A DNA stretch of 64,000 bases. It comes from Heliopora coerulea (lineage: Eukaryota > Cnidaria > Anthozoa > Scleralcyonacea > Helioporidae). Below are positions 1-55,307 of this stretch, in pieces (the first letter of the stretch is position 1; every line of letters begins with the position of its first letter). The stretch is from NCBI GenBank assembly GCA_030142905.1, contig JASJOG010000602.1:29074-93073 (forward strand), in the 5' to 3' direction. Made by a program: the position numbers and the translations under genes. The notes beneath the pieces are model-generated. The model was not told where the DNA came from, did not search any database, and saw only the letters and a program-made list of their open reading frames with translations.

Positions 1-219
1 ATTTTCTTCTGTAATTGTTTTGTCTAAAATTGATGAAGAAATTTCTTGATTTTGTCTTGGTCTTCCTCTATTTCTAACAAAAATTCGTTCATTTTGTCTT
101 TTTTCTGGAGGTAATGTTACTGGTCTTCCTCTATTTTCCCATCTTGGTCCTACAAAAGAACCAAAAGGATATTTTCTTGGTCTTCCACGACCGCGTTTTG
201 AATTATTTAAATTATTCAT
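1..219 (-). CDS. AT-hook-like basic protein, C-terminus cut by window edge
   Basis: The leftward frame opens at an ATG at 219 and is open to the window edge (73 codons seen). It contains three Gly-Arg-Pro cores (GRGRPRKY, NRGRPVT, NRGRPRQ), the minor-groove-binding AT-hook signature, in a Lys/Arg-rich chain. A role in binding A+T-rich element DNA is inference. The start lies just downstream of an ATATATAATAAAAG stretch like those at the other element starts. A decayed related frame (PRKYFTEEE) occurs in Polinton-2 near 41480. It is too short for the ORF-length cut-off but supported by motif and promoter context. Confidence 0.6.
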   Translation of the reverse strand, partial: MNNLNNSKRGRGRPRKYPFGSFVGPRWENRGRPVTLPPEKRQNERIFVRNRGRPRQNQEISSSILDKTITEEN

Positions 220-321
220 CTTTTATTATATATGGTTTTTTTTAAAGACAAAAAAATAATTAAAAAAAAAAAATTTTTTTCATGATTGGTCACGTGACTA
301 TATTGAAAAAATTATGAATGA

Positions 322-609
322 TTACTCGATCTTAGTAAAAACAAAAATATTAAATAATGGGGGTTCTATTTTTGATTGAAGTTTTAAAATAAGATGATAA
401 TGCATATAAATTTTTTCATCATTCTGGTAATCAACTTCAAAATCAGAAAAATAACAATCTTTTTCTTTATAATTTATTGTAAATTCAGTATGTGGTAATA
501 TTTCTTCTCTGCTAAGTTTAATAATTTCTTTGATAAAAGTATTATACATATTACTTTTTGTATATTTATAATTTTTTGGCACAAGTATTTCAATAATTGT
601 TGATGACAT
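322..609 (-). CDS. hypothetical Polinton protein, 95 aa
   Basis: This is an open frame of 95 codons in the leftward module. It is preceded by the TATATAATAAA-type start context shared by the neighbours and separated from them by about 70-100 bp of A/T-rich spacer. The chain is mixed acidic/aromatic without Cys pairs, membrane segments or a motif I recognise. The context makes it a likely real gene of the element; function unknown. Confidence 0.55.
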   Translation of the reverse strand: MSSTIIEILVPKNYKYTKSNMYNTFIKEIIKLSREEILPHTEFTINYKEKDCYFSDFEVDYQNDEKIYMHYHLILKLQSKIEPPLFNIFVFTKIE

Positions 610-676
610 CTCTTTTTTTTATTATATATAAATTTTCCTTTAAACAAAAAATTTTAAAAAAAAAAATCAAAATTTT

Positions 677-1024
677 TCAACAGTTATAAAAAACAAAAAA
701 TGTTTGCCCATTAATTTCCAAATCTTTTTTGGTTTTTATTCTATATTTTATACTTTCTGCATTAATATTAAAATTTTTTGCGGCAGATCCAAGACTTTTA
801 AAATTTAAGATTTCACCTGTTTCACTGTTTATAACTATTACTGGGATTGGATTTTTCATTTTTTCTCTACAATATTTTTCATACTTTTCATTTGGTTTGC
901 TAATTTCAAATCTCAGCATTTCTTCAAGTTGATTTTTTGTGTATCTTTTATAATATTTTATTTTTCTTTCTCTTGCAATATTCCACAATTGTTTGAATGT
1001 TTTTTGTTGACAATGGTCTTCCAT
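677..1024 (-). CDS. SAP/HeH-like plus NUMOD1-like DNA-binding protein
   Basis: Residues about 8-40 (TFKQLWNIARERKIKYYKRY then KNQLEEML) resemble the helix-extended-loop-helix of SAP/HeH modules. Residues about 60-112 (VIVINSETGEILNFKSLGSA and following) match the NUMOD1 pattern, a small DNA-binding module usually found next to HNH or GIY-YIG nucleases. No nuclease domain is present, so it may be a free-standing DNA-binding protein of the element. The start at 1024 has TATATAAATAAATGG immediately in front. Nuclease-derived origin is inference. Confidence 0.65.
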   Translation of the reverse strand: MEDHCQQKTFKQLWNIARERKIKYYKRYTKNQLEEMLRFEISKPNEKYEKYCREKMKNPIPVIVINSETGEILNFKSLGSAAKNFNINAESIKYRIKTKKDLEINGQTFFVFYNC

Positions 1025-1059
1025 TTATTTATATAATTATTTTATTTAAAGAAAAATTT

Positions 1060-1509
1060 TTAAATAAATTTATAAACTACATAACCACCCAAAAGACCGG
1101 CTGCAAAAAAAACAACATTTTGATATTCTTTCATTTCATCTGTAGGTTTATAATAATCTTCTAATTTTGGTTCTTTTTCATCTTCTTCATCCGCTTCTTC
1201 TTTTAAATATTTATAACGATTATTTATAGCTTGCTCGTGTTGCTGCGCTTCAGCAAGATTTTTCAAAGACATGTTTGTCTTATTTATATCAGCATTTGCA
1301 TCAGATAATTGTTGTCTTAATTTTTCAATTTCTTGTTTTCTTTTTACTTGATCTTCATACCATTTTTCTTTTTCCCTAGCAAGTTTTTCAATTGCTTCAT
1401 TATGTCTTTTTATTTCTTTTTCATACCCAGAATGATTTAATTTTGAAAATAAAAATCCAGCACCTGCAAAAGCAACTGCATTAAATAACCCACCAACTAC
1501 TGTTTCCAT
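1060..1509 (-). CDS. coiled-coil membrane-anchored Polinton protein (family A)
   Basis: The 149-aa protein starts with a hydrophobic segment (residues about 5-22), followed by FSKLNHSGYEKEIKRH, a long charged coiled coil (residues about 35-100), an acidic stretch, and a C-terminal transmembrane segment (VVFFAAGLLGGYVVYKF). A clearly homologous gene lies at 24585-24896 (shared FSKLNH..Y.KEI.RH core and heptads), again followed upstream by the family B gene, so the pair is conserved between two elements. The start has TATAAATAAATGG. A virion-membrane or assembly role is inference; the family is not one I can name. Confidence 0.7.
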   Translation of the reverse strand: METVVGGLFNAVAFAGAGFLFSKLNHSGYEKEIKRHNEAIEKLAREKEKWYEDQVKRKQEIEKLRQQLSDANADINKTNMSLKNLAEAQQHEQAINNRYKYLKEEADEEDEKEPKLEDYYKPTDEMKEYQNVVFFAAGLLGGYVVYKFI

Positions 1510-1530
1510 TTATTTATACATTTTTCTATT

Positions 1531-1764
1531 TTATGATTTGAAAGGATCAGAAGGAATCCATTTCTTATCTTGTGCATATTTAACTGCAAGCGATGATATT
1601 CCAACAGCTGCTGCAAGTTTTAAAGTAGGAACTAAACTAGATGGAGTTGATAAACCATCACTAATTACTTTTCTTGATATCATTCCAACTCCAACAGCAC
1701 CCAATGTAATTAGTGTAGAATCATATAATTCATTCATAACTTCTTTTCTATTCATTTCTCCCAT
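1531..1764 (-). CDS. small hydrophobic Polinton protein (family B)
   Basis: This 77-aa protein has two hydrophobic stretches (STLITLGAVGVGMISRKV and LKLAAAVGISSLAVKYA). It sits directly upstream of family A and has the TATATAAATAAATGG start. Homologous coding (LLITGVAVGVSM with the same spacing) is split by a transposon in Polinton-2 (25109/28482), so it is a conserved gene rather than a chance frame. Likely a small membrane protein; function unknown. Confidence 0.7.
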   Translation of the reverse strand: MGEMNRKEVMNELYDSTLITLGAVGVGMISRKVISDGLSTPSSLVPTLKLAAAVGISSLAVKYAQDKKWIPSDPFKS

Positions 1765-1796
1765 TTATTTATATACATAAAAAAAATTTTTAGAAC

Positions 1797-2276
1797 TTAC
1801 AGGTTTTCAATAGAACATGGCGGGGTTATTTTAAACTCATGACCTTCCTTCTTTCTTAGCTTAGCTTCACCGTCTTTTTCTTGTTTTTCTTGTTGATTCG
1901 CTGAAGACCCGCTTTGGTGAAGCATTTCTTGGTCTCTTTTGTCTTTTTTATATGCAAAGTATAGCCCTCCCAGCGCAGTAGCAACTCCCACCACTCCAAT
2001 CAAATACCCCAAAGTGGAAGGTTCAACGCCAAAGGTGTAATTATTTTCTTCATTTTCTTCGCTCCGCTGTCTTGCTTTTCTTTCTTTTGCTTCTCTTGAA
2101 ATTTTTGCCAATCTTTTTCCCAATTCTACTTTTCTTGGGTCTTTTGCTTTAGCATTTTCAGATTTTTCAACAGCTGTCACTTTATCAGCTGCACCTTTGG
2201 TGCTGGACCTGCGGTCCTGAGGACTTCGTCCGATGAGAGCTTTGCTCGATGTGCTGTTTTCACTTGTTTCACTCAT
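1797..2276 (-). CDS. single-pass membrane Polinton protein with an inserted hairpin-encoded peptide
   Basis: The 159-aa protein has a basic N-terminal half, a KRLAKISREAKERKA helix, one transmembrane segment (LGYLIGVVGVATALGGLYFA, residues about 90-110) and a charged C-terminus. Residues about 12-29 (KALIGRSPQDRRSSTKG) are encoded by the mini-hairpin cluster at 2191-2247. The homologue at 41545-41879 has the same KRLAAIS helix and membrane segment but no such peptide, so the cassette looks like a later insertion. The start carries TATAAATAAATGAG. Function unknown; a virion-associated role is inference. Confidence 0.7.
   Translation of the reverse strand: MSETSENSTSSKALIGRSPQDRRSSTKGAADKVTAVEKSENAKAKDPRKVELGKRLAKISREAKERKARQRSEENEENNYTFGVEPSTLGYLIGVVGVATALGGLYFAYKKDKRDQEMLHQSGSSANQQEKQEKDGEAKLRKKEGHEFKITPPCSIENL
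2191..2247. repeat. mini-hairpin cassette, four triloop hairpins
   Basis: Four consecutive perfect inverted repeats with 3-nt loops: GCACC-TTT-GGTGC (2191-2203), GGACC-TGC-GGTCC (2205-2217), GGAC-TTC-GTCC (2221-2231) and GAGC-TTT-GCTC (2237-2247). They lie inside the frame of the membrane protein and are much more G+C-rich than their surroundings. Confidence 0.85.
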
Positions 2277-2501
2277 TTATTTATAATTTTATTTTTTATT
2301 TAGAATTTATTCAAAATTATTTAAAAGTTATTTATAAATAAAATTAAATAAAAGTCAAGTAAATTTTAAATAACCACAAATGTTATTTAAAATTTATTCA
2401 AAGTTATTTATGAATAAAATTAAATAAAAGTCAAGTAAATTTTAAATAACATTTGTGGTTATTCAAAATTTATTCAAAGTTATTCAAAATGTATTTAAAA
2501 T
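2277..2501. repeat. non-coding spacer with 49-bp direct repeats and a flipped 15-mer
   Basis: This 225-bp gap is unusually long for the module. A 49-bp sequence at 2326-2374 recurs at 2402-2450 with one difference visible (period 76 bp). TAACCACAAATGTTA at 2371-2385 reappears as its exact reverse complement at 2447-2461, so one copy is inverted relative to the direct repeat. The remainder is A/T-rich repeats of TTATTCAAA type. It could be regulatory or replication-related; I see no coding sequence. Confidence 0.8.
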
Positions 2502-3656
2502 TTATTTAGATATATATTTTAATATTTCATCTTCGTCAAAATCAACACCATATTTTTTACAAAGAAGATAATGATTTAAAACAATTTCTAGGTATTTCAT
2601 TTTTCTTGTTGAAACATATACATATAATATTTCTCCATCCATTTTTCCGTGGTCTTTATTTTTTGATCCAAGATAAAATTTCGTATTTGAATTGTGAGAT
2701 AATTTACTATTTGTAATGAAAGAAACAATTTCTTTTCCATTCACATAAAGTTTTCCTTTTTTACCACCACTGAGGTTATTTTGGTCCCAATGTACAGAAA
2801 GACATATTAATTTGTTTATTTCTTTTGCATTTGCTTTCAATTGCCATCTACTATTTGAAATTGCAGACGCGGATGAATTTGTGATATATAATAATGAATT
2901 ACGATAAGAAATACCAAAATTAAAAGGAGTTGGTTGACTTACTGTTTCATTATCTATGATTTTAAACAACGATACCTCATTGTTAGACGAATTTAATGAT
3001 TTTAAACCATATACAAAATAAAAATTCAAGTGTTGATTGCTTAAAATATCTTGTTTACTAACTAAATGTAAATTGTTACTGTTTGATCCAAGATATTGGA
3101 CACAATAAAAATTATTATTAATTGTGGATTTTTTGAAAAATGGTTGTTTGTTTGTATCATCTTGTTTGAAATTCCAATCTTTTTTTCTTGACAAATTCAA
3201 AAGTTTTTCAACCTTTTTATTGCTTCCAGTATATTCTATATAATTATCATCATCTTTCACATCAAAAATTCCTTCATCATCCATTTGCAAATTATAAATA
3301 TTTGCAACCGTATTTGCCAATGAAAAATTTGTCACATATTTTTTAGTCACAACATGATTATCAGAAGATGGGGCATAATTTAATGCATGAAGAATATGAT
3401 GATTTCCCATATCCAAATCTCCTGTCATGTTTCCACCAGTCAGGGATAATTTTGTTTCATCTTGGTCATCAACATATTTTTTTCGAGCCAAATGTTTATC
3501 ATCTATAGGATCAATTGTTGAAATTATTTTATTTGTGTTTATAGTCAAATCGCCGGTCATCGTACCGCCTGTTAAAGATAATTTTTTATCAAATTCATTT
3601 AAAATGAAATTTTTCCTTTTTGAGCTAAAATCATCATCATTAAATATAACACTCAT
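2502..3656 (-). CDS. tail-fibre-like protein: two shaft repeats plus lectin/LamG-like head
   Basis: The 384-aa frame has two N-terminal shaft repeats of the form LSLTGGTMTGDL..(15-20 residues)..KHLARKKYVDDQ (residues about 27-60 and 71-105). This is the arrangement known from phage tail fibres (GGTMTGxIDMGxxKIxxxxDPxxxxxAxxKKYVD). The C-terminal about 230 residues look like a concanavalin/LamG-type beta sandwich (KLYVNGKEIVSF, KFYLGS, DGEILYVYV). A role as host-attachment spike is inference. It is a shorter paralogue of the neighbouring fibre gene, and its promoter TATATAAAATAAATGAG overlaps the end of that gene. Confidence 0.7.
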   Translation of the reverse strand: MSVIFNDDDFSSKRKNFILNEFDKKLSLTGGTMTGDLTINTNKIISTIDPIDDKHLARKKYVDDQDETKLSLTGGNMTGDLDMGNHHILHALNYAPSSDNHVVTKKYVTNFSLANTVANIYNLQMDDEGIFDVKDDDNYIEYTGSNKKVEKLLNLSRKKDWNFKQDDTNKQPFFKKSTINNNFYCVQYLGSNSNNLHLVSKQDILSNQHLNFYFVYGLKSLNSSNNEVSLFKIIDNETVSQPTPFNFGISYRNSLLYITNSSASAISNSRWQLKANAKEINKLICLSVHWDQNNLSGGKKGKLYVNGKEIVSFITNSKLSHNSNTKFYLGSKNKDHGKMDGEILYVYVSTRKMKYLEIVLNHYLLCKKYGVDFDEDEILKYISK

Positions 3657-3661
3657 TTATT

Positions 3662-5104
3662 TTATATATTTATAGGATTATGATCAACGTTGTATAAATT
3701 ACAAAGAACATAATGATAAAACAAAATTTCTTTTTCTGTCATTTTCTCGTGTTTTAAAATTGAAAAGAAAGATATTGATCCATCAAAAGGTGAATTTGTG
3801 TTGTTTTTTATATCACCAATTGTTAAAGTTGTATCTCCTAAAACAGTCTTGGTTGTAAAAGATGTTAACTTTTTTCCATTACAATAAACACTACTTTCAT
3901 TATTATTTGGTGTTGTATACATATCCCAATGAATACTTAAACATATCCATTTATTCAAAACTCCAGCATTTGCTTTTGATTGAAAAGCAGCAATTGGTGT
4001 TTTATGATTTACAGGATTTGAACCAATACCGAAAAAATCAACACTATCTCCAGCAATAACTAATTCTTTTGTGGATGGATTTGCAAAACAAACAAATTTA
4101 TCATAACCTCCATTATCATGTCCAAAAATTCCTCCTTTTAGCCAATCACTTCCAGATGAAGGAACAGAATTCAATTTATAAACAACAAAAACATTTACAA
4201 TATCTTTTTTCCCTGATATTGGATTAATGTTGGAATCTGAAATCATTCTATTGTTATTAAATTTTAAAAAATATTTATTATCTTCCTTTTCACTTTCTAA
4301 ACACAAGGAAGGTTGAAGACTTTTTGTTGTTTGTTTTAAATTGTTTCCTTCAATTCCATAATCAATTAGTTCTTTTACTTTTCCACCGTTTCTTTCAAAC
4401 AACAAATCATAAATTGAATTATATTCAACAAAATATAAATTATGAAATTTCAAAGAAAAATTATCTTTCAGCACTGAAAAACTAACATCTTTTTTGAGAA
4501 TGTTTAAATTATGATCAATACGGTCGCCGACGTATTTCTTCCTCGCTAAATGTGTTTCAAGTGTAGGATTTGTTGAAGAAATAATTTTATTACTTCCAAT
4601 TGTAACATCACCTGTCAATGTTCCACCAGTTAGGGATAATTTTTTAGAATTTTGATTATCTACATATTTTTTTCTTGCTAAATGTTTTTCACCCGTAGGA
4701 TCTGAAGCTGTTAGAATTTTATGATTTCCCATGTCAATATTTCCTGACATTGTTCCACCAGTTAAGGATAATTTTCTAGAATCTTTGGTCATCTACATAT
4801 TTCTTCCTACAAAGGTCTTTATCACTCGCAGGATTTGCAGTTGTGGAAATTTTATTAGGACCCATGTCAATATTTCCCCTCATTACACCCCCTCTCCTTG
4901 ATAAAAAATCTACATCTGTGTTTTTCTTACAAGGTCATCTACATATTTTTTTCTTGTCAAATGAATGGGTTGTGTTGGGTCAACTGATGTTATTATATGG
5001 TGTGACCCCATGTTAATATCTCCTGTCATATCCCCTCCTGTGGTAGACAGCTTTCCTGTTACATCAGATTCATGTTTGCTTTCATATCCATAAAATAAAC
5101 TCAT
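3662..5104 (-). pseudogene. longer tail-fibre-like gene, broken by stop and frameshift
   Basis: It begins at ATG 5104 with one shaft repeat (GGDMTGDINMGSHHI, then HLTRKKYVDD) and stops at 4910. A further shaft repeat continues in another frame across 4910-4795, and the frame from 4792 carries two more shaft repeats and a lectin-like head (KWICLSIHWDMYT, SVYCNGKKLTSF, FDGSISFFSIL). Four shaft repeats therefore once formed one protein. The stop and shifts make it a decayed or frameshift-damaged gene. The head is related to that of the 2502-3656 protein, indicating tandem duplication. Confidence 0.7.
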
Positions 5105-5842
5105 TTATTTTATAATAATTTCCAATAAAACATTTCCAATTGAAGATGAACCACCTGCACCTTTGGTGCTGAGACCTCCGGTCGATTGTGGCCCACTACC
5201 ATGGTTTCCTTCTACTTTGAATATTAATTCATTATAAATTCCATTTGATAATTTTATTCCTCCTCCCGGTCCTGTTTCTTCAGGCGGATAAATTTTAGAA
5301 ACACTTCCTTTTAGTGTTTGTTCAGATTCAATTGGAACTTGAATAAGTACATTACTTCTTTTACCATTTACAAAATTTTTACTTTTATCAATCATATTAC
5401 AGCATATGTTTACATATTCCAAGTTGTTATTAATATTTACTACATTGTCGCTTTCTGTTAATGTATTTGCTTGTATAACTTTATTTTCTGGAAATCCTAT
5501 GATTGGTCCAAATGTTTGTAAATTTAATTTTTTATCTGATTTTATTGTACATTTTCCAGAAAAATCAATTTGTTCCAGTTCAATTGCACCGACATTTTCT
5601 AATTCAGTTTTTAAAATATTAAAGGTATAATATCCATCTTTGAAGCCAATTTTTCTATTAGCACCTTGCGTATCATAACTAAAATGATGAATATTTTTAT
5701 ATAAATTATTAAAATTCCAAAAAATACTAACTGATTTTACAAACATCTCTGAACAATTAGTTAATATAAGTGGCTCGTCTAATGGAATTATTTTTTCTGA
5801 GTTTTCATCTTTTGTGATGAAGATTTTTAAAGATATTGTCAT
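5105..5842 (-). CDS. penton/minor-capsid-like jelly-roll protein
   Basis: The 245-aa protein has the layout I associate with Polinton minor capsid proteins: an N-terminal strand-rich part, GYYTFNILKTEL, FGPIIGFPENKVIQA, then LEYVNICCNMID, SNVLIQVPI and LIFKVEGN. Residues about 215-232 (GPQSTGGLSTKGAGG) come from a mini-hairpin pair at 5157-5183. Its TAA stop directly abuts the ATG of the fibre gene (TAAATG), so the fibre promoter lies inside its last codons. The assignment rests on pattern and neighbourhood. Confidence 0.6.
   Translation of the reverse strand: MTISLKIFITKDENSEKIIPLDEPLILTNCSEMFVKSVSIFWNFNNLYKNIHHFSYDTQGANRKIGFKDGYYTFNILKTELENVGAIELEQIDFSGKCTIKSDKKLNLQTFGPIIGFPENKVIQANTLTESDNVVNINNNLEYVNICCNMIDKSKNFVNGKRSNVLIQVPIESEQTLKGSVSKIYPPEETGPGGGIKLSNGIYNELIFKVEGNHGSGPQSTGGLSTKGAGGSSSIGNVLLEIIIK
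5157..5183. repeat. mini-hairpin pair inside penton-like gene
   Basis: GCACC-TTT-GGTGC (5157-5169) and GACC-TCC-GGTC (5173-5183), the same unit types as at 2191-2247, inside the reading frame. Confidence 0.75.
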
Positions 5843-5879
5843 TTATTTTATAATATATATTTTGATTCAAAACTTTGTT

Positions 5880-5938
5880 GCACCTTTGGTGCTGGACCTG
5901 CGGCCCGATGAGGACCTCGTCTGATGAGAGCTTCGCTC
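5880..5938. repeat. mini-hairpin cassette at gene boundary
   Basis: GCACC-TTT-GGTGC (5880-5892), GGACC-TGC-GGCCC (one mismatch), GGAC-CTC-GTCT and GAGC-TTC-GCTC follow one another, in the same order as at 2191-2247. The cluster fills most of the spacer between the 536-aa gene and the penton-like gene. Confidence 0.8.
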
Positions 5939-5940
5939 GA

Positions 5941-7551
5941 TCAGAGCACGTACCATGCGATTAAAATTCCACCAATTATTGATAAAGATAAAACAATTAA
6001 ATTATCACCCGTAGGGGCTGTGGCTGTTGTTATAGTAGCGCTTGTGCCGACTCCGCCGGTTTTCAACTGTTTGCTGGACCTTTGGTCCTGAGAACTTCGT
6101 TCGATGTTTTTTGTTACTTTAGCAACCAAAGGCTGTTTATTGGTCTTTGGTTGCTCTTCAGTTCCTAATGTTTCTAATTTTTTCAAGCCATGCGCTCCCA
6201 GTTGTTTTTTTACAGCGCTGGACCTTCGGTCCTGAGAACTTCGTTTGATTGCGTCGGCTCCGCCGTGTTCTTTAACCCCGTAATAATTTAAATTTTTGTT
6301 AATCCCAAAAATCATATTTTCTGATGAAACTTTTAGTTTATTATTATAACCATCTATTGGTTCTTTTAAAATAATTAAAGATGATGGAATTAACCATAAA
6401 GTTGGACTTATAGCAGTATTTAAAACTACATTAGTTGACGAAATTGCTTGATTCATATTATTAATCCATGTTGATGTATCATAATTTATAATAGAATCTT
6501 CAAAAATTTGCCTAAAAACTTTTTGTGTTTCCAATGCTGAAGCTCTATTTGAAACAATACTTTGTCTAGTTCTAGCTTGCGAACCAAGAATTGCATAAAG
6601 ATATGCTTCAATGCTTTGATTCAATAATTCAGTTCCATTTTTTATTAATCCATCTGAAATTTTTGGAATGAATTTTTTATAATCATTTTGTGTGTCTCTA
6701 ATTTGCCCTGGACCGTGTTTATATCCTGGCCATGGTGTACTCATATCAATTGCATGAGAATCTCTAATGTGCCTTTTTTTTCCTGAAATTTCTTGCCATG
6801 TCCATTTTGGGTAGTGATCTTTTAAAAAACCAGCATTAAATTTATAAAAGTTTTTATCATCACCATTTCTCAATTGCCACATAATTCTCCTAACTGTAAA
6901 ATATAGATGAAATCTCATAAATGATGTAATTTGTTTTGGAACATCAGCTGAAAATAATAAATGTTGTATTGAAATTCCACATCCATAAGTTGCAATCCAT
7001 GTTCCTATAATGCTTTGAAAATATGGTTCATTAAGTGACCATTTTGCATTATCATCTGTAGTTATATTCAATCCGGGTAAATTACTTTGAAAATAATCTG
7101 TATTGTTTACATAAATTCTAAACTGGTTAATAGGATAACTTAAAACATATTGTGTAGGAAAATTATCCCAATAATAATTTTTTCCTGTATAATCAACATG
7201 TCTTTTACCTTTTGGTAATTCTTGCACAGTTCCTCCTAGTTTCCAAATTTTTGGAAAATTTGGTTTTGGCTTGTTAATATAAAGATACTTTGCCATATTT
7301 GGGTCATTTTTAAATGTATCTGAATTTATATCTGTTGAAATATATGGTGAATTTTTAAACCAAACATGATAACCTTGAAAAACGGTGTTTTTATCAAAAT
7401 CAGCCTCAAAAGTGAATTTGGACATGTCTGCATATGGATATTTCTTTTTAAAATATTTTTTCTCCAATTCAACATCTTCTTTAATATTTTTCATAACATA
7501 ATCATAATTTTTCCCATAATATTTTCTTTCCATTTCTTCAGTTGAATTCAT
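5941..7551 (-). CDS. large Polinton protein, 536 aa, unknown fold, C-terminal membrane anchor
   Basis: An intact frame, first of the leftward block. The N-terminal 400 residues are soluble-looking and aromatic-rich (for example WSLNEPYFQSIIGTWIATYG, FRQIFEDSIINYDTSTW). The last about 20 residues are a transmembrane segment (IVLSLSIIGGILIAWYVL) after a low-complexity linker. The linker holds two hairpin-encoded peptides, RSSQDRRSS and RSSQDQRSS. A homologous stretch (QIFEDSVINYDTSTW) is found at 53790-54730, so it is a conserved element gene. Function unknown; a structural or membrane-fusion-like role is speculation only. Confidence 0.75.
   Translation of the reverse strand: MNSTEEMERKYYGKNYDYVMKNIKEDVELEKKYFKKKYPYADMSKFTFEADFDKNTVFQGYHVWFKNSPYISTDINSDTFKNDPNMAKYLYINKPKPNFPKIWKLGGTVQELPKGKRHVDYTGKNYYWDNFPTQYVLSYPINQFRIYVNNTDYFQSNLPGLNITTDDNAKWSLNEPYFQSIIGTWIATYGCGISIQHLLFSADVPKQITSFMRFHLYFTVRRIMWQLRNGDDKNFYKFNAGFLKDHYPKWTWQEISGKKRHIRDSHAIDMSTPWPGYKHGPGQIRDTQNDYKKFIPKISDGLIKNGTELLNQSIEAYLYAILGSQARTRQSIVSNRASALETQKVFRQIFEDSIINYDTSTWINNMNQAISSTNVVLNTAISPTLWLIPSSLIILKEPIDGYNNKLKVSSENMIFGINKNLNYYGVKEHGGADAIKRSSQDRRSSAVKKQLGAHGLKKLETLGTEEQPKTNKQPLVAKVTKNIERSSQDQRSSKQLKTGGVGTSATITTATAPTGDNLIVLSLSIIGGILIAWYVL
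6076..6102. repeat. mini-hairpin pair in the 536-aa gene
   Basis: GGACC-TTT-GGTCC (6076-6088) and GAAC-TTC-GTTC (6092-6102). The frame across it gives RSSQDQRSS. Confidence 0.8.
6220..6246. repeat. second mini-hairpin pair in the 536-aa gene
   Basis: GGACC-TTC-GGTCC (6220-6232), then a degenerate GAAC-TTC-GTTT (6236-6246). The frame gives RSSQDRRSS, nearly the peptide encoded at 6076-6102. Confidence 0.8.
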
Positions 7552-7572
7552 TGTTTATTTTAATAAAAATAA
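7552..7572. promoter_or_regulatory. 21-bp divergent promoter between the two gene blocks
   Basis: Only 21 bp separate the ATG of the leftward 536-aa gene (7551) from the ATG of the rightward integrase (7573). The spacer, TGTTTATTTTAATAAAAATAA, is nearly symmetric, giving an AAATAAAxATG-like context to each side. Both blocks must use start signals within or overlapping this spacer and the first codons. Confidence 0.6.
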
Positions 7573-8712
7573 ATGAATGCGAAGCGTGTGAATGAAGTGA
7601 ACATGAGTGATAAAGAAGTTGTTATTGAACAAGAGTTAAGAGACATTTACTACAACCCAGAAACAGGTTATCAATCTGCGGAAAGACTTTATCAAAAAGC
7701 AAAAGAAAAGGGATTAAAAGTCAGTAGAAAAATTGTGCAAGACTGGTTAAAAACACAAGATACTTTTACAAGATACAAACCAATTGTTAGAAGACATAAA
7801 TTCCAAAGAACATTTGTCAAAGATTTAGCTGAACAAATACAAATGGACTTGGTTGATATGGGAAAATACAGCAAAGCTGGTCAAAACCAGAACAAAGGAT
7901 ATTATTGGATACTGACAGCTGTTGAAATTCTAAGCCGTTATGCATTTGCCATTCCTGTTTACAGAAAAGATGCTAAAAACATGACAAAAGCTGTGGATGA
8001 ATTATTAAAACAATTTAAAGAAAGATTTGGTAAATACCCAAAAGTCGCTCAATTTGATGAAGGAAAAGAATTTTACAATGTAGGTGTAAAAGAACTATTG
8101 AAAAAACATAATGTTGAATATTTTTCTACAAACTCTGATAGAAAAGCAGCTATAGTTGAAAGATTTAACAGAACTCTAAAAACATCCATGTGGAAATATT
8201 TCTATAGCAAGGGAACTTATAATTGGATTAACATTTTGAGTAACCTTGTAGATAATTATAATAATACTAAACATAGTAGTATATTAATGAAACCTGCTGA
8301 TGTGAACAAGTCTAACAAAGATCAAGTGTGGATTACACTATATGGTCACCCATTAGGAGATTTACCTTTACCTAAATTCAGAATTGGTGATACTGTTAGG
8401 ATTTCTAAATATAAGAATATCTTTACTAAAGGTTATGAAGCTAATTTTACAGAAGAAATTTTTAAAATTGTAAAAGTATTCAGAGGTGATCCAAACATGT
8501 ATGAAGTGGAAGATTTAGAAGGAGAACCAATCATTGGGAAATTTTATGAACAGGAACTATCTGCTGTGGATAAAAAGGATGATATATATAAAGTAGAGAA
8601 AATATTAAAAAGAAAAAAAGTTAAAGGAAAAAATATGGTGTTGGTAAAGTGGTTAGGTTATGATAATAAACATAACTCTTGGATACCAGAAGAAAATATT
8701 CAAAACATATAA
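7573..8712 (+). CDS. retroviral-type integrase with C-terminal chromodomain (F54H12.3-like)
   Basis: The 379-aa protein has an N-terminal helical region, then an rve-type core with D-D-E residues in QMDLVDM (about residue 96), VAQFDEGKEF (about 158) and ERFNRTLK (about 197). The chromodomain is at the end (YKVEKILKRKK, VKWLGYDNKHNSWIPEENI). This is the Polinton integrase, inserting the element with short target duplications in the nucleus. The upstream ATG at 7573 is in the conserved start context, although a second Met at 7603 is also possible. The next gene's promoter overlaps its stop codon. Confidence 0.93.
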   Translation: MNAKRVNEVNMSDKEVVIEQELRDIYYNPETGYQSAERLYQKAKEKGLKVSRKIVQDWLKTQDTFTRYKPIVRRHKFQRTFVKDLAEQIQMDLVDMGKYSKAGQNQNKGYYWILTAVEILSRYAFAIPVYRKDAKNMTKAVDELLKQFKERFGKYPKVAQFDEGKEFYNVGVKELLKKHNVEYFSTNSDRKAAIVERFNRTLKTSMWKYFYSKGTYNWINILSNLVDNYNNTKHSSILMKPADVNKSNKDQVWITLYGHPLGDLPLPKFRIGDTVRISKYKNIFTKGYEANFTEEIFKIVKVFRGDPNMYEVEDLEGEPIIGKFYEQELSAVDKKDDIYKVEKILKRKKVKGKNMVLVKWLGYDNKHNSWIPEENIQNI

Positions 8713-8717
8713 AATAA

Positions 8718-10094
8718 ATGGATAAAGGTTTTGATGATATAGAAATGAGAAATAGAAACATAGAAGAAGAAGAGGAAGACCGTGAGGACCGTGAGGACGA
8801 AACAAGTTTTGGGGGAGATGATAATAATAGAAGTATAAATATAATAAACACAGAAAATCCAAGAACAACAAGGGTTAACCTTTGAAGAGAAACACCTGTA
8901 AATATATTAAGAAGAATGAGAAATGTAAAATCAATAATAACTACTGATAAAAAATCTAGTTTTAAAAAAATATTTAAAATTCAACTTGAAAAGAAAAATG
9001 GACCAAATAATAGTATATTGTTGGATAAAACTTCGTTTGTAAGAGACCAAAAAGGAAATGTTTCAATTATTTTCAAAGGTCAAAAAATTGGTAATGTCAA
9101 TTCAAAAAATGAACCAGAGTTATTTACCAGAAAAAATAAGAAATATGTTGATGAATTTAATGATTATATGGAAAAAGCAAAAAAAGAATATGAAAAAACT
9201 CCAAGTGCGGTAATAGAAAAAAGAATCAGCGTATCCGTCGCGGAGCGTGGTAACCTTGGTGGTCCGCTTCGCGATGAAGTTATTAATTCTATCACTGATG
9301 ATTCTATTTTAGAAATTCAAACTAAAATTGATAATATAATTGGTGAAAATAACTTAAAAAAATTCATTGATAATGAACAGGATCCAAGGCGAACATTATT
9401 TGAAAGAAATGAATTAAGAGAATTTAGAGGTTTGGTATATTTGGAGGATATTGGCTCCAATCTATCAGAAAATGAAAAAAAAGAAGTTATACGTGGAAAA
9501 ATTGATGGATTTGATAGAGAGCATCAACATTGGAAAAATCAATCTGATTTAGAAACAGCTGAACCCCAAAAAAGTATATATAAAAGTTTTTCAGAAATTG
9601 CAAAACTTCAACCAGATAAAATGAGACTTGAAAATAATGAAAGACCAATTAGTGAAGAAGGAATACAGATTTTAAATGAAAATGCTGAAGAATCTGACCT
9701 TGGAAGATTAGAAAGATTTAAAAAATGGGCAAAAGAAAATTTATTAGGTTTATCAGCAGTTGCTATTTCTGTAGCAGGCATAATTACAGCAATAGTTATA
9801 AGGGCAAGAAGTGTATTGAAACAAGGTGCAAATGCAGTTGGAAAATTGGGAAAAGCAATTGCAAATATAGGTAAAAATTTTGGTGCAGTCATTTCAGCAG
9901 TTTTAAATTTAATTTCTCAAATATTATCATGGGGTGCAAAAGGTATTGCTTTTCTAGCTAAAAATTTATGGATATTAGTTATTGCAATTACTTACTTTTT
10001 ATACAATGAATACCGAAAGGACAAAGAATACCGAAAGGACAATAAAAAAAACAGAATAGTGAGTGAAGTGAGTGCTTCTGATAAACAACCATAA
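8718..10094 (+). pseudogene. membrane-associated Polinton protein interrupted by an in-frame TGA
   Basis: ATG 8718 follows CATATAAAATAA, the standard start context, and the frame reads an acidic N-terminus until TGA at 8883-8885. The same frame continues open to 10094, with a Met at 8916. The 392-aa remainder has basic and helical parts, a hydrophobic segment (LLGLSAVAISVAGIITAIVI), a Gly/Ala-rich amphipathic stretch (QGANAVGKLGKAIANIGKNF) and a last membrane segment (NLWILVIAITYFLY). A mini-hairpin remnant lies near 9230-9275. Either a nonsense mutation or a later start at 8916 explains the data. Its role is unknown, probably virion membrane. Confidence 0.65.
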
Positions 10095-10134
10095 GTTGGT
10101 AAACTAAAAAATTTTTTTTTATATATAATAAAAA

Positions 10135-11374
10135 ATGAATAGAGTAAACGAATTATATCCAGGATATAAAAGATCAAAATTGAGTGAAATTAAAGGAAAC
10201 AGAACAAGACATGTTGTAACTTTGAATCCGAATTCAGCAAATCCTGAAGAAGACCTTTATATAGATATTCCAAAATTAAATCCTAATTTGTGTCTTGTTC
10301 CTGATTCATTAAAATTGTTATTTAATTTTAAAAATGCAAATACTAAATCGTGGTTTTTAAATAATTTATCAAAATTGTTAAAGAAAAGATTGGTTGTTAA
10401 ATTTGCTGGAGAAATTGTTTACGATAATAGTGGAGAATCTTTACTAGAAATTTACAAAGATCTTTGGAAGCCTGAATTTGAAAGAGCAGATATGGTTGAA
10501 TACGGCATCGCCCGAGAAAACCTCAGAAAATTAATTTCAAAAGATGATAGTGGAACAACAAGTGGAAATGTACAAAAAGTTAGTGATAAATTAATGTATG
10601 ATATTTATGGAACAAAACAGTGTTTAAAATTAGAAAAAAATACTTTCAGATCATGGGTTATATGCTCCTTATGGAATGATTAACAATTTTCAATATATTT
10701 TAACTTTTCCAAAAGCTAGTGAAATTATGGTAGCACAAAGTGGTCAAAGTGTTGCGGGATATAGTTTGGAAAATTTAGAACTAGAATATGAAACGATTGA
10801 AAATCAAGATTTAGCAATTGATGTTTTGGCAAATTACGCCTCAGGAAGATCATTGTCATATAATTATGTAACTTTGATGAAAACAGTAGAATGGGATAAA
10901 GACGCAACTTTACATAATGAAACCATAAATATCCCACGGAAAAGTATGAAAGCAGTTGTGTTGTTATTTAGAAATAAAACTATCGCAGATAGTGAACAAT
11001 TTGTTTATCCAAATATAACAGATGTCAAAATTAGTGTTGAAGGAGTTCCAAATAGTATATATTCCCAAGGTATGCCAAAAAGAAGATTTTTTGAAGAGGC
11101 ATTTAGAATATTTCACTGCGGATATTCTGACTGTGATTCAGTCATGAGTATTGAAAAATTTTATAAAGATTCATTTGCATTATGCGTGGATTTAAGAACA
11201 TTAGATGATAACTTTGTTTATGGGAATGGTAAAAAGTTAGTAAACACACAGTCTGGACTATTGTTAGAAATTAAAAAAACTGCCATTTCTGCAAATGTAA
11301 TGTGCCATATATTTGTGATAAGTGATGGATTGTTAAACATTGTAAATAAAGATTTGTCTTCAATTCAATTTTAA
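10135..11374 (+). pseudogene. major capsid protein (F54H12.2-like), one frameshift
   Basis: The first frame (10135-10683) and second frame (open to 11374) overlap and together have the double-jelly-roll capsid family pattern of Polintons: N-terminal SANPEEDLYIDIP, FAGEIVYDN, later SVEGVPNSIYSQGM and FALCVDLRTLDDN. The switch of frame is at an A-run near 10631-10638 and corresponds to one surplus base (the downstream frame is +1). The nematode homologue is annotated F54H12.2, beside the integrase F54H12.3. The gene sits between the membrane protein and the ATPase as usual. Frameshift could be decay or assembly error. Confidence 0.85.
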
Positions 11375-11395
11375 AAACAAGATGAAAAATAAAAA

Positions 11396-12070
11396 ATGAA
11401 TGACATCAACCGAAGGTCTCAGCACCAAATGTGTAGCAAATCTGAACACGAAGTGGGCAACAAAAAACCATTTAATATGATAATTGTTGGAATGACTGCT
11501 TGTGGAAAAACAAAATATCTTTTAGATTTTATAGAAAATAAATATAAAAATTATTTTGATTATATTTTTTTAATTTGTCCGACATTTGAATGGAATAAAA
11601 CTTATGAAAATTGGAAATATGATAAAGATGAAGATTTTATTGCCATTCCTTGTGATCAAGATAATGTTGAAGATTGGTTAAAATTTATAGTTGACTTTTC
11701 AAAAGGAAGTAAAAGTTTAATCATATTGGATGATTGTGCAAGTGGAAAAAATGTTAAAAATAGAACAAGTGAGCTGGTTAAATTGGGATTTAGTGCTAGA
11801 CATTATAATCTTTCTGTTGTTGTGATTACACAACAATTGACATCTATTGCAAAACCATTTAGAGAAAATATTTCAAAGTTGGTTACATTTTATAACCCGA
11901 ATAAAAAAGATATGACAACAATAATTCAAGAATATTTAGACCTACGGTCCGCAAGCGGTGTAGGCAACCGCACAGAATTGGATAAAATTTTAGAAACGTT
12001 AAAAACAAAAAAATATTCATGCTTGGAAATTAATTTAATTTTTCCATTTGGTTATAAAATAAATGAGTGA
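11396..12070 (+). CDS. A32/FtsK-HerA-type packaging ATPase
   Basis: The 224-aa protein has Walker A GMTACGKT (residues 32-39), Walker B SLIILDD (107-113) and a downstream VITQQ sensor motif. This is the compact ATPase that pumps the genome into capsids in Polintons, virophages and poxvirus A32 relatives. The length is normal. The first about 20 residues are translated from a degenerate hairpin cassette. The last codons contain TATAAAATAAATG, which serves the next gene, whose ATG overlaps this stop. Confidence 0.92.
   Translation: MNDINRRSQHQMCSKSEHEVGNKKPFNMIIVGMTACGKTKYLLDFIENKYKNYFDYIFLICPTFEWNKTYENWKYDKDEDFIAIPCDQDNVEDWLKFIVDFSKGSKSLIILDDCASGKNVKNRTSELVKLGFSARHYNLSVVVITQQLTSIAKPFRENISKLVTFYNPNKKDMTTIIQEYLDLRSASGVGNRTELDKILETLKTKKYSCLEINLIFPFGYKINE
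11939..11958. repeat. mini-hairpins within the ATPase gene
   Basis: GACC-TAC-GGTC (11939-11949), then CCGC-AA-GCGG sharing its last base, inside the reading frame near the ATPase C-terminus. Confidence 0.65.
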
Positions 12071-12614
12071 AAATAGTGAACATGTAGAAGTCCCGCAAAT
12101 TGAGACAAGTACAACCGCCAGTGAAGAAAAGCAAACGCAAGATGCTAAAAAAGGAGTAATGAAAAAACGAGAAGAATTGATAAAATTGTCTGAAGATGGG
12201 GAAATTAGCCAATCAGTACAAAATTTGAAAAAATCAAGTGATAAAGTTATATTAAAAATTTATGCTGAATATGAAGTAAAACAAGCAGAAAAAGCAAATG
12301 TATTTTTAACAGATTTACTAATTAGTAAATTTGCAGATTTATTAGGAGGGTTAGAAGCAATTGAAAGCAGTGAAGAATTGGAAAAAGAACTGGTGAAAGA
12401 TAAATTATTAAAAAGAGATGTAAAATCTGTAGTTGAAAAACTAAGCCCATATTTACCATATCTTGGAATATTATCTGGTGGAGTTACAGTTGGAAAACAT
12501 GTTATTAAAAAACATAGCAAAAAAGACGACATCGAGCGAAGCTCTCAGCAGCGAAGCCGCAGTGGGGCTGTCCGTCAAGACGGTAGTGAGCCGTCAACAA
12601 GTCAAACTGAATAA
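12063..12614 (+). CDS. helical Polinton protein, 183 aa
   Basis: Translation starts 8 bp before the ATPase stop, in TATAAAATAAATGAG. The body is helical and charged (SSDKVILKIYAEYEVKQAEK, KFADLLGGLEAIESSEELEK), with a hydrophobic hairpin-like end (LSPYLPYLGILSGGVTVG). The C-terminal 25 residues are translated from mini-hairpins (12534-12583). It is the last gene of the rightward block. Function unknown, likely structural. Confidence 0.65.
   Translation: MSENSEHVEVPQIETSTTASEEKQTQDAKKGVMKKREELIKLSEDGEISQSVQNLKKSSDKVILKIYAEYEVKQAEKANVFLTDLLISKFADLLGGLEAIESSEELEKELVKDKLLKRDVKSVVEKLSPYLPYLGILSGGVTVGKHVIKKHSKKDDIERSSQQRSRSGAVRQDGSEPSTSQTE
12534..12583. repeat. mini-hairpin cassette at a gene 3' end
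   Basis: GAGC-GAA-GCTC (12534-12544), a GC-GAA-GC core, then CCGTC-AA-GACGG (12572-12583). The GAA loops are the complement of the TTC loops elsewhere, so this cassette is in the opposite orientation. Confidence 0.75.
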
Positions 12615-12643
12615 TTTTATAATATATATTGTATTATAAAATT
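12613..12643. terminator. stem-loop between convergent genes
   Basis: AATTTTATAATA (12613-12624) and TATTATAAAATT (12632-12643) form a perfect 12-bp stem with a 7-nt loop in the 34-bp gap between the convergent 183-aa and myristoyl-protein genes. A bidirectional transcript-end signal is inference from position. Confidence 0.5.
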
Positions 12644-12648
12644 AAAAA

Positions 12649-12996
12649 TTATTCTGTAGATTCTGAAGATGAAGGTTTAACAACTGTGTCTTTTCTGGTT
12701 AATTTACTCATAAGTGTATTTATTATTTTATCTTTTTCTTTTGAGTTATTGTTTGTTGATACTTCATTTTCTAAAGATTTTAACAATTTTAAATGATTAT
12801 TATTTTTTCCAAACGTCATTCCGGCTTCAAAATCTTTCATTCCAATATCAACATGAGCACCGATTCTAAAACCGCTTTTTTTAATTTTTCTAAAATTTAT
12901 TGGAGGATATCGACCAATGGTGTAACCATCAAGATTTAAATCTTTGTTTGACTCATTGGAGTCATCTTTGCTTTTTTTCGATTTTGAATTACCCAT
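12649..12996 (-). CDS. probable N-myristoylated basic protein, 115 aa
   Basis: It starts MGNSKSKKSK, matching the N-myristoylation consensus (Gly2, small residue at 6, basic cluster). The middle GYTIGRYPPINF, FRIGAHVDIGMKDFEAGMTF looks structured; the tail is Ser/Lys-rich. The start context is AATAAATAAAAAAATGGG. Membrane targeting during virion assembly would fit, but that is inference. No family recognised. Confidence 0.6.
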   Translation of the reverse strand: MGNSKSKKSKDDSNESNKDLNLDGYTIGRYPPINFRKIKKSGFRIGAHVDIGMKDFEAGMTFGKNNNHLKLLKSLENEVSTNNNSKEKDKIINTLMSKLTRKDTVVKPSSSESTE

Positions 12997-13004
12997 TTTT
13001 TTAT

Positions 13005-13202
13005 TTATTGATAAATAACTTTTTCACAAATTTTACATCGAAATGTTCTAGGTTCTGAAATATAAATATAAAGTTTAAAAACATTATTCCAAAAAAATCT
13101 AAACAATTTACTAAATCTTAGGTAAAAATTTAGAATTTTCAAGCATTTTTTACATATTGTAAATAAATATCTATTAGTATTTCTTAAAACTATATCAAAC
13201 AT
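13005..13202 (-). CDS. small protein with two CxxC pairs
   Basis: 65 codons starting in TTTAAATAAAAATG. The pairs CKKC (residues about 18-21) and CKIC (about 56-59) could bind one zinc. The rest is aromatic and basic (FYLRFSKLFRFFW). It lies immediately upstream of the myristoyl-protein gene. Could also be a chance frame. Confidence 0.4.
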   Translation of the reverse strand: MFDIVLRNTNRYLFTICKKCLKILNFYLRFSKLFRFFWNNVFKLYIYISEPRTFRCKICEKVIYQ

Positions 13203-13229
13203 TTTTATTTAAAACAAAATTCTTAAAAA

Positions 13230-13252
13230 CGCTTCGCGTGCACCTTCGGTGC
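13230..13252. repeat. mini-hairpin pair, intergenic
   Basis: CGC-TTC-GCG (13230-13238) and GCACC-TTC-GGTGC (13240-13252). Confidence 0.75.
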
Positions 13253-13313
13253 TGTATCTTTATAGTGTTATTAGAGTTTTTACTTTTGTCTAAAATGTTT
13301 CCTTAAAATTCTG

Positions 13314-13589
13314 TCAAAAAAGGTAATTCCCCCGCCAGTCGTTGAGGGACTTTTCCCACATTCCATACATACCTAATCTCCCTAACAACGGAGCAAACCG
13401 AAAATAGTTTTTTTGTTGACATCGAGTGAGGCTAGTTGTTAGGGAGATTGAGCATGTATGGAATGTTTGGAATGTTTGGAATGTTAAGGTTATTCCCCAA
13501 GACAACATGTCAGCGAAGCTGTTTGAAACAGCTTTGTTTTGCGACTTCGTCGCTTGAGACCTCTGGTCGATGCTAAAGTTTTGACCCAT
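13314..13589 (-). CDS. doubtful 91-aa frame beginning MGQNFS
   Basis: The start resembles a myristoylation signal, but most of the frame is translated from mini-hairpins (13511-13568) and from the long inverted repeat at 13359-13465. The start context is only weakly like the element's promoters. It may be the broken 5' part of a gene invaded by repeats. Confidence 0.2.
   Translation of the reverse strand: MGQNFSIDQRSQATKSQNKAVSNSFADMLSWGITLTFQTFQTFHTCSISLTTSLTRCQQKNYFRFAPLLGRLGMYGMWEKSLNDWRGNYLF
13359..13465. repeat. 31-bp inverted repeat near the right end of Polinton-1
   Basis: Arms 13359-13389 and 13435-13465 match at about 28 of 31 positions and enclose 45 bp. They are followed by GGAATGTTT repeats. 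This could be a terminal secondary structure or a small inserted repeat. Confidence 0.65.
13511..13568. repeat. mini-hairpin cassette
   Basis: CAGC-GAA-GCTG (13511-13521), GCGAC-TTC-GTCGC (13541-13553) and GACC-TCT-GGTC (13558-13568). A further GAAC-GGA-GTTC lies at 13653-13663. Confidence 0.8.
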
Positions 13590-14116
13590 TTTTAAAATGT
13601 GTTTAAATTCCCGGTAACGTAATTAAATTCATGAAAGCGGCCGGAAGTGATCGAACGGAGTTCTCAGCGAAGCAACCGAAAGTTATGTTATCAAGGAAAA
13701 GGGTTTTCCCCGACTATTTTTTTGTCGATTGAAAATGTGTAAAATTTAACCAAATCCCAAAATGCGCTAGAATCCGGACATTACAGACTACTTCAGTTTA
13801 TTAAAATAAACAGATTACTGAAAGATATAGACTAAATCACAAATTTGAGTCATTACTTTGATATCGAAGTAGCCCAATGAACCACCTTATTTGACAATGG
13901 AAATTAGCTGCAATTTTGGACAAAGCTTGTTAACACTTCCATTTTTATTTCAAAATAGACAAGCCATCTTTCCTCTTGATGACTCTAACTCAGTAAGATT
14001 ATGGTCAAAACAATAAATGTGTTCACATTCTTGTCTAAATTTGTAGTTTGCCAAAAACCTTACAGCACAACTGATAAAAGTACTTTAATAAAGCTCTTCA
14101 AAATGCTCTAAGTAAT
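13590..14116. other. border region without recognised gene
   Basis: The transition from Polinton-1 to the HECT pseudogene. One mini-hairpin at 13653; otherwise no open frame, terminal repeat or motif that I can support. Confidence 0.4.
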
Positions 14117-16392: not shown

Positions 16393-16592
16393 ATGCCTGT
16401 CTATTAAATGCGATTGGCTTCCACGACAGCACTGTCGCTGGTGTTACCCAACCAAATTGATCTGTGTTTTGTTAAACTGATTTGTGTTTTCGAATACTTG
16501 TTTGTGTTTGACACTTATGGGCCACAGTAGAAAACTCCAGAAAAGGTTAGATATAGGAAGCTGATCTTGATTATTTACTAGCACCTAAAAAA

Positions 16593-17270
16593 ATGAAAGT
16601 AAAAAAAGACATGGTATCTCCCTACTGCAAATCCATAGGCCAGGTTATGAAGTTAGTTCCAAATCTCAAAGACAAGACAAAGTACATATGTCATTACAGG
16701 ATTTTTACAGAAAAGCAGAAACACACAAAAAACAGCTTTGAGAAGGACTTCTTCAAGCTTATGAACGAGTCAGTCTTAGGGGAAAACTATGGAAAATATT
16801 TGTAAGAGAACCAATGTAAAACTGGCTACAAATGAAAATGCTTTGTTAAAACTAAACACGAAACCAACCTTCAAAATTCAACAATAACCTGGTAGCAGTC
16901 CACAAAATCAAAGAAAGTCTTTATGAATTGACTGATGTATGCAGGTATGTGCATTCTGGATCTATCTAAAGTCCTAACATACGAATCCATTACCTGTACA
17001 TCCAACTAAAGTAGAACATAAAAGCTAAACTGCTGTTCACAGATACAGACTTTTGGAATGACAAAGACCTATTTGACAATAGTGACCATCTCAAAGACTC
17101 TCAGTTCTTCAATAAATACAATAAGAGAGTGATCAGAAAATTCAAGGACAAAACTGATGGTATTTCAGTCACTGAGTTTGTTGGACTAAGGCCCAAAATG
17201 TATAATTATACAAAGGAGAATAAAAAACTGGCAAAGACTGGTAAGAGCATGTTTCCAAACTATTAACTTA
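16593..17270 (+). pseudogene. Polinton PolB C-terminal remnant (Polinton-2)
   Basis: The fragment SFEKDFFKLMNESVLG matches the KNAFEKDFFKLMN motif of the 55.9-56.4 kb polymerase. About 230 bp on, LLFTDTD marks the metal-binding palm motif C, then ISVTEFVGLRPKMYNYTKEN follows. Stops and shifts interrupt it throughout. The protein-primed family B polymerase replicates Polintons; this copy is non-functional. Rightward orientation next to the leftward Polinton-2 block suggests it belongs to that element. Confidence 0.75.
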
Positions 17271-24417: not shown

Positions 24418-24584
24418 TTATATTTTTATAATAGATAATAGTGATATTCTTTTAAGTGTGTTATAGTAAAAAATTCCATATGGTTAAATCAATTTATGAA
24501 TTAAATATCCTGTTCCAAGACCAACTACTCCAATAAATATCAGTTAATACTCTTTTATTTCCTCAAATGGTTGGCAGAAATCAC

Positions 24585-51712: not shown

Positions 51713-51714
51713 TA

Positions 51715-53745: not shown

Positions 53746-53789
53746 CTTTTCAGTTGGCAAATAACGGTAGTTTGTCGACAGGAGATTTG

Positions 53790-54730: not shown

Positions 54731-54739
54731 TATATATTA

Positions 54740-55251: not shown

Positions 55252-55307
55252 ATATATTATAAGGAAGATTTAATATTTTTATAATTTCCATTGTGTACAT
55301 TACAATA

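Follow-up and report, generated by a model that had tools for sequence, protein, structure and literature searches.

A recently active, structure-defined mobile hairpin pair of 30 nucleotides in a Polinton family of Heliopora coerulea

The DNA analysed here (the window) comprises 64,000 nucleotides (nt) of the cnidarian Heliopora coerulea (assembly GCA_030142905.1, contig JASJOG010000602.1, positions 29,074 to 93,073), and its left part carries a Polinton in which a small pair of DNA hairpins recurs. These units are a recently active mobile hairpin pair defined by structure. The favoured explanation, to which we give a probability of roughly 0.6, is that a non-autonomous mobile element of 30 nt, itself defined by its structure, lives within a single Polinton family. 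The mobility of the hairpin pair is well supported, and in the sample studied the confinement of the units to one Polinton family is supported too.

The core unit has two parts, the first of 14 nt with a triloop hairpin of 5 base pairs (bp) and the second of 16 nt with a triloop hairpin of 4 bp: TGNNNC-NNN-GNNNC, then TGAGNNC-NNN-GNNCGA, the next letter being T. The constant letters are the T-G start, the TGA linker and the GA end with its T; the stems are free as long as they pair. This grammar was derived from loci fetched from the genome, most of which conform to it, with the 13-mer GCACCTTYGGTGC as the first probe. A strict pattern with free arms and free loops has 69 matches in the fetched loci and the window element and none in the reversed control. 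Among these strict units, the variable arm positions are paired in 200 of 207 cases in the first hairpin and in 136 of 138 in the second. Pairing holds for 97.7% of the stem cells of 34 distinct units, against 78.2% after shuffling, and the changed cells comprise 44 two-sided, 2 one-sided and 7 unpaired ones. Arms of different types combine freely, four types of second hairpin being found with the commonest first one, and inverted loops occur (B loop GAA in 4 of the 69 units). Four 31-nt strands, one of them reverse, fold as drawn under DNA parameters, at -5.9 to -6.8 kcal/mol. Stem pairing and folding thus both give two adjacent hairpins per unit. In Rfam, at gathering thresholds, the sole match is a tRNA at 54239-54311, and no known RNA or ribozyme corresponds to the units. 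A compensatory pattern of this sort may arise in DNA, which calls for caution in taking covariation as proof of RNA function.

How widely are such units spread? A search of the whole 430-Mb genome with T-Y-Y loops (Y being C or T) and free arms gave 221 + 210 = 431 units, and 0 + 0 for the reversed control; the 13-mer had 136 + 127 matches, against 11 + 5 for its reversed pattern. Loci were fetched from among the listed 13-mer places, 40 of them of 5-8.5 kb and 20 of 0.5 kb. All 20 newly sampled unit places belong to one Polinton family, with 517-601 of 601 nt covered by the other Polinton loci, and they lie on large contigs within Polintons, not in organelle DNA. The packaging ATPase of the Polinton has at least 150 scored genome copies, a lower bound drawn from 1122 first-look candidates; set against 431 units, this means fewer than three exact-pattern units per scored copy on average. 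The unit patterns have no exact match in IMG/VR or in prokaryotic genomes, and peptide patterns, each from one sequence, found no relatives in IMG/VR of the ATPase or of the protein of 536 amino acids (aa) encoded at 5941-7551.

The case for mobility comes from comparing copies. A relaxed search (up to 2 mismatches) found 114 units, which were grouped into 62 sites by their 14-nt flanks, and empty alleles were sought in all fetched loci as joined flanks matched at 51 or more of 60 letters. Such an allele exists in another copy for 29 of the 62 sites. When net inserts of 24 to 36 nt were tried, the best was 30 nt at 26 sites and 29 nt at 2, with a tie between 29 and 30 at 1, in keeping with an earlier note on the window that had suggested a tiny mobile or copying repeat. 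Presence and absence differ even between close relatives: over 1543 aligned nt loci L043 and L031 share 99.3% identity, with a single unit in L043 only, and L023 and L016, at 98% identity, differ in their nested units. A reciprocal case is found where L029 is filled and L011 empty, and 16 nt further on L011 is filled and L029 empty. There is no flanking duplication beyond one T, and a 1-nt duplication of T is indistinguishable from a unit that ends in T.

The sites share a target motif, SY^TS (S, G or C; ^, the joint), which is complete at 31 of the 62 as against 2.05% of Polinton positions. Letter by letter, S stands at -2 in 47, Y at -1 in 54, T at +1 in all 62 and S at +2 in 48. The relaxed search includes T at +1 among its 15 letters; the strict pattern leaves that position out, and T nevertheless follows in 69 of 69 cases. 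The joint between a unit's own two hairpins, GC^TG, conforms to the motif and is the most frequent context (10 units, 6 variants). One gene site is empty in L019, holds a simple unit in L011 and, in L036, a further unit nested in the simple one; the window copy of this site, 15 nt different, resembles a unit that has lost an internal part. Second hairpins have been swapped in place between L015 and L029, L055 and L022, and L036 and the window, with flanks 92-96% identical. A preference for insertion beside existing hairpins was also considered and set aside as weak (9 of 62 sites against 6.8% at random positions, p 0.02).

What happens when a unit lies within a gene? One Polinton-protein alignment spans 33 of the 62 sites, and all 33 units are in frame and open, 27 of them in reverse and 6 in forward orientation; 18 further sites fall at the edge of a gene or the end of an alignment and 11 were classed as noncoding, with no frame jump at any site. 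Of 46 distinct units, 45 are free of stops in every reverse frame, whereas all 46 have a stop in one forward frame. Part of the strand bias is thus due to selection, by which inserts with stops are removed. Counted from the peptides, the three reverse frames are used at 12, 7 and 8 of the 27 sites, and since all three are in use the peptides look like by-products rather than conserved coding. The earlier note had read the peptides RSPQDRRSS, RSSQDRRSS and RSSQDQRSS as in-frame additions, which is confirmed, and had called the repeat tuned to stay in frame. The coding inserts do keep the frame, but inserts of 30 nt are also present at sites scored noncoding (L043:2991, L046:1892, L074:290); the idea of tuning therefore calls for caution, and 30 nt looks like the native size of the unit, which by chance equals ten codons.

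Conservation of the peptides in distant Polintons, which the same note had named as evidence for ancestral coding, is not seen. Among 120 listed homologues of the 12063 protein (gene 12063-12614), all 70 with less than 70% identity lack the cassette peptides, and RSSQD.RSS is absent from all 120 homologues listed for the 536-aa protein. Cassette 6-mers are found in 2 of 240 fetched database proteins, P0127 and P0001, both about 73% identical to those of the window; P0001, a homologue of the 536-aa protein, has its cassette-like peptide at a different place. Both cassette peptides of the window's 536-aa protein fall within the low-confidence region of its AlphaFold model (414-518). The units offer a route by which protein tails could grow in ten-residue quanta.

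These observations fit a mechanism in several steps. A new unit would be placed precisely, with no target duplication except for one T (the end of the unit or a 1-nt duplication), and preferably at SY^TS, a motif also present where the two hairpins of an older unit meet, so that nested cassettes would result; single hairpin modules would be swapped in place. Precise ends, target preference and the lack of duplication point to a specific joining step, for which an enzyme or a hairpin-guided template switch might be responsible. Polintons replicate by strand displacement, and movement would probably take place on single-stranded replication intermediates, where hairpins form, and not on chromosomes; that the units are restricted to Polinton DNA suggests movement while this DNA is being copied. 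The Endonuclease_7 family acts on branched DNA, which makes the Endonuclease_7 domain of the carrier a candidate cutter. Paired stem changes together with inverted loops argue for template switching as a process of upkeep. Inserts in genes could survive as ten-codon additions because the unit has 30 nt and a reverse strand nearly free of stops. A fuller picture, to which we give slightly less than even odds, is of a minimal, gene-less transposon of 30 nt that is defined by shape and not by letters and parasitises a virus-like parasite: it would multiply only on replicating Polinton DNA, copy its stems from arm to arm, nest within itself and act as a ten-codon generator.

Several observations weigh against a mobile element of this kind. 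A piece related to the PolB-like/Endonuclease_7 gene is found in the Polinton remnant at 59 kb, in which the search gave no units, and among 19 protein queries Pfam gave no transposase other than rve. At the chosen cut, 33 of the 62 sites have no empty allele in the fetched loci. Flanks of 14 nt can merge nested units of different places, and in the largest flank group (10 units) the wider flanks are only 33-53% alike; tblastn alignments that span a unit favour in-frame cases. Gain is favoured over loss by the lack of the cassette peptides in homologous proteins, not by a tree. The likeness of units is no higher within than between loci: pairs from different sites of one locus are on average 6.80 letters apart (0 of 65 identical), and pairs from different loci 6.29 (1.4% of 6255 identical). 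Local donors are thus unsupported by this comparison, and no donor was traced. Covariation is also weaker by other measures. Pairs with two-sided changes number 5, compared with 4.0 in shuffled units, and 33 of 500 shuffles attain the observed value; for further pair types the figures are 13 and 9.8, with 9 of 500 shuffles attaining it. In 20 comparisons whose flanks agree at 70% or more, orthologous stem pairs show 8 two-sided and 6 one-sided changes, so that coupling is strong across the family and less so within sites. Finally, the z-score for one of five folds is just -1.8.

Could the hairpins arise without any mobile element? Polymerase template switching at quasi-palindromes might both make and maintain them, and three observations agree with this: the arms change together, the B loop is inverted in some units and modules change in place. 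Arm homogenisation and spacer inversion are signatures of such switching in PMC8604942. Yet relative to an empty site both hairpins are new, with the same 30-nt frame and the same ends at many sites, whereas a local switch would copy nearby sequence; the process explains upkeep and diversification better than spread, and as a full account it is unlikely. Somewhat less probable again is that a Y1/HUH single-strand transposase moves the units in trans, as it does IS200/IS605 and REP elements. Two hairpins, precise ends, a target preference and no duplication beyond the T would all be expected of it, but the 19 Pfam queries, outside which some Polinton genes and the host genes lie, contain no such gene, and the target preference extends to both sides of the joint and not to the 5' side alone.

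Copying through RNA, by reverse transcription of a short hairpin RNA as has been suggested for the Allomyces hairpins (PMC2800124), seems improbable. It would suit the lack of flanking duplications, and 27 of the 33 coding units are reverse to their gene where open frames alone predict about 64%. The stop-codon filter accounts for part of that bias, however; no reverse transcriptase is found in the 19 Pfam queries, and one-sided or G-U-type changes are few. That the hairpins are ancestral coding or regulatory repeats, conserved in Polintons, is hard to credit: several fetched copies do share certain filled positions (for instance 7 copies near the right end and 4 at 5156), but empty alleles exist, three reverse frames are used, and the distant homologues examined lack the peptides. 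Least credible is chance or an assembly artefact. The 13-mer alone does match in the reversed control, and five loci that contain it (L032, L050, L051, L054 and L060) have no second hairpin, match none of the Polinton proteins used as queries and align to Polinton loci over 84 nt at most; these were put down to chance. The full units, at 431 against 0, are spread across many contigs. A mobile hairpin pair of the Polinton family thus remains the preferred reading.

Hairpins in the window were counted if the stem had 4 or more pairs and 3 or more of the 4 pairs closing the loop were G/C. Positions 1-13700 hold 21 such triloop hairpins, whereas 30 dinucleotide shuffles gave 1.5 on average and never more than 5; random sequence of this composition, which the earlier note had held up as a possible equal in density, falls far short. 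The excess is milder in the rest of the window (23 against 11.6, maximum 20). Nine of the ten hairpin clusters that had been listed hold at least one hairpin by this cut, and the tenth, at 13653 (GAAC-GGA-GTTC), misses only its G+C part. The partly conserved order of their parts is explained by the 30-nt hairpin pair and is more regular than was first noted. A Polinton-2 homologue lacking the peptide had been placed at 41545-41879 and was not recovered there: tblastn with 19 protein pieces, one of which (the 12650 gene) was misframed, gave relatives only near 16.5-17.2, 24.5-24.9, 49.9 and 54.4-59.6 kb.

A scripted search of the window found four modules exact in their fixed letters, at 2204-2233, 5156-5185 and 6075-6104 on the plus strand and 12532-12561 on the minus strand, and a fifth with a single mismatch at 6219-6248; the strict pattern has no match beyond 13.8 kb. 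Reading of the sequence added the outer arms of two cassettes (2190/2234 and 5879/5925) and, on the minus strand, a worn copy at 11406-11435. The first module is the inner part of a 60-nt nested cassette, 2190-2249 (plus), formed by hairpin A (2190-2203), the module and hairpin B (2234-2249); it sits in frame and in reverse orientation in the 1797-2276 gene, where it encodes RSPQDRRSS. The single 30-nt module at 5156-5185 (plus) lies in the 5105-5842 gene (STGGLSTKGA), and its site is filled in L018, L037 and L044 and empty in L022. A second nested cassette, 5879-5940 (plus), is intergenic, with hairpin A at 5879-5892, hairpin B at 5925-5940 and between them a worn inner module of 32 nt (5893-5924) that is missing from L022 and L039. 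The single modules at 6075-6104 (plus; RSSQDQRSS) and 6219-6248 (plus; RSSQDRRSS) both lie towards the C terminus of the 536-aa protein, in its low-confidence tail. The worn module at 11406-11435 is near the start of the ATPase gene and has a better-kept counterpart, L011:3828, whose best empty match, in L036, reaches 50 of 60 letters, just below the cut. The minus-strand module at 12532-12561 is in the tail of the 12063-12614 gene, and its second hairpin is unlike that of L036 at the same site.

Shorter hairpin inserts accompany the modules. A single 12-nt triloop hairpin at 7869-7880 (plus), in the integrase gene, is missing from some copies, including L012, L021, L022 and L042, and an 18-nt hairpin insert at 11939-11956 (plus), in the ATPase gene, is present in 4 of the comparable loci and absent from 14. 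Near the right end, 13229-13252 (plus) holds two single hairpins, ACGC-TTC-GCGT and GCACC-TTC-GGTGC, which a 30-nt module adjoins in L046 and L047. At 13511-13570 (plus), the hairpins CAGC-GAA-GCTG and GCGAC-TTC-GTCGC are found with a B-type module (13555-13570), and seven fetched copies have an extra module between them, with a net size of 29 by best fit. By the chosen cut, 62 of 200 indel clusters are hairpin-rich, a set distinct from the 62 flank-defined sites. Further G+C-rich hairpin indels, 12-24 nt long (CCGC-NNN-GCGG, ACCC-NNN-GGGT and others), form a second set, observed in L013, L016, L018, L022, L041, L044 and L048; some have one arm in the flank, and they are possibly remnants or another type of unit. 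The 12-24 nt inserts are real indels but follow no single grammar, and some may be remnants of deletions, for which reasons they were left out of the counts.

The carrier is a Polinton by its genes. Pfam identifies a retroviral-type integrase, with rve and a chromodomain, at 7573-8712 (plus) and an A32-like packaging ATPase at 11396-12070 (plus). The element extends to the left of the window, where locus L089 (contig C560, 24500-29073) holds a PolB-like gene; no hairpin unit is present in that stretch. We tentatively take the gene to be PolB from its motifs; Pfam gave no PolB match for its pieces in L017 and L089, nor did PDB sequences or PHROGs for the L017 piece. It does match Endonuclease_7 (PF02945), at L089:1648-3126 (minus) and L017:3-566 (plus), with 25.6 and 36 bits against a cutoff of 23.6. 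The 536-aa protein was once considered as the major capsid protein, a proposal that has been withdrawn; its AlphaFold model is mainly helical, with a C-terminal helix, a mean predicted local distance difference test score (pLDDT) of 61 and a predicted template modelling score (pTM) of 0.50. Remnants of other Polinton-like elements at 16518-17209, 24487-24896 and 49900-59614 are related by tblastn to the PolB-like protein, the 1060 protein and the 536-aa protein and are without strict units. Two fibre-like genes, 2502-4792 and 4784-5030, contain repeated LSLTGGTMTGD blocks, with further copies of the repeat between genes, and have a Laminin_G_3 match under the cutoff (24.9 against 27.6 bits). 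The tandem repeats of 2502-4792 are that region's own and unrelated to the hairpin units. The open reading frames 10135-10683 and 10676-11374, which overlap and have no Pfam match, may be one gene. An inverted repeat at 13349-13475 (41 nt, 83% complementary, 45 nt apart) lies near the right end of the element and may belong to that end.

Which known systems do the units resemble? Rickettsia palindromic elements share insertion in frame into protein genes, but are bacterial and much longer, at about 100-150 nt. IS200/IS605 and REP/BIME, which are prokaryotic and need a Y1 transposase, are likewise bounded by hairpins and cause no target duplication; no Y1 gene was found here in the 19 Pfam queries. 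IS200/IS605 inserts 3' of a fixed tetranucleotide, whereas SY^TS spans both sides of the joint. Quasi-palindrome template switching offers a likeness in arm homogenisation and loop inversion, but as described it edits existing palindromes and, unlike the units, does not spread to new sites (PMC8604942, PMC3820800). Coding palindromes in the mitochondria of Nematomorpha show that palindromes can be tolerated in protein genes; they reach 284 bp and are not described, in the available part of the source, as a repeated mobile unit (PMC6649704).

The closest relatives by description are found in organelles, both mitochondria and plastids. Like the mitochondrial double-hairpin elements of Allomyces (Paquin et al. 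2000, via PMC7218506 and PMC2800124), the units are hairpin elements that differ by presence and absence between relatives and leave no flanking duplications; unlike them, they inhabit nuclear virus-like DNA, have a fixed size of 30 nt, prefer SY^TS and enter genes in frame. Yeast mitochondrial GC clusters are also mobile G+C-rich hairpins whose units merge and shuffle, but are set apart, again by description, by a putative AG target-site duplication (PMC4478555), which the units, with nothing beyond one T, do not show. The hairpin-forming elements of sponges (PMC2800124) and the palindromic repeats of Volvox (PMC2670323), the latter with loops of 3-5 nt and in both orientations, are short hairpin repeats as well; they lie in intergenic or intronic organelle DNA, and the nuclear copies in Volvox are described as apparently inert (PMC2670323). 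In the literature searched (titles and the beginnings of abstracts, with most subscription journals outside its scope), no hairpin elements in Polintons are described. As far as these searches reach, the units are of the same general kind as the organellar double hairpins and new in their place and manner. The available parts of PMC2800124, PMC4478555 and PMC2670323 leave open the means by which organellar hairpin elements and GC clusters move; with 431 nuclear copies, many empty sites, an exact size, a target preference and differences between near-identical copies, the process becomes datable here and its steps testable.

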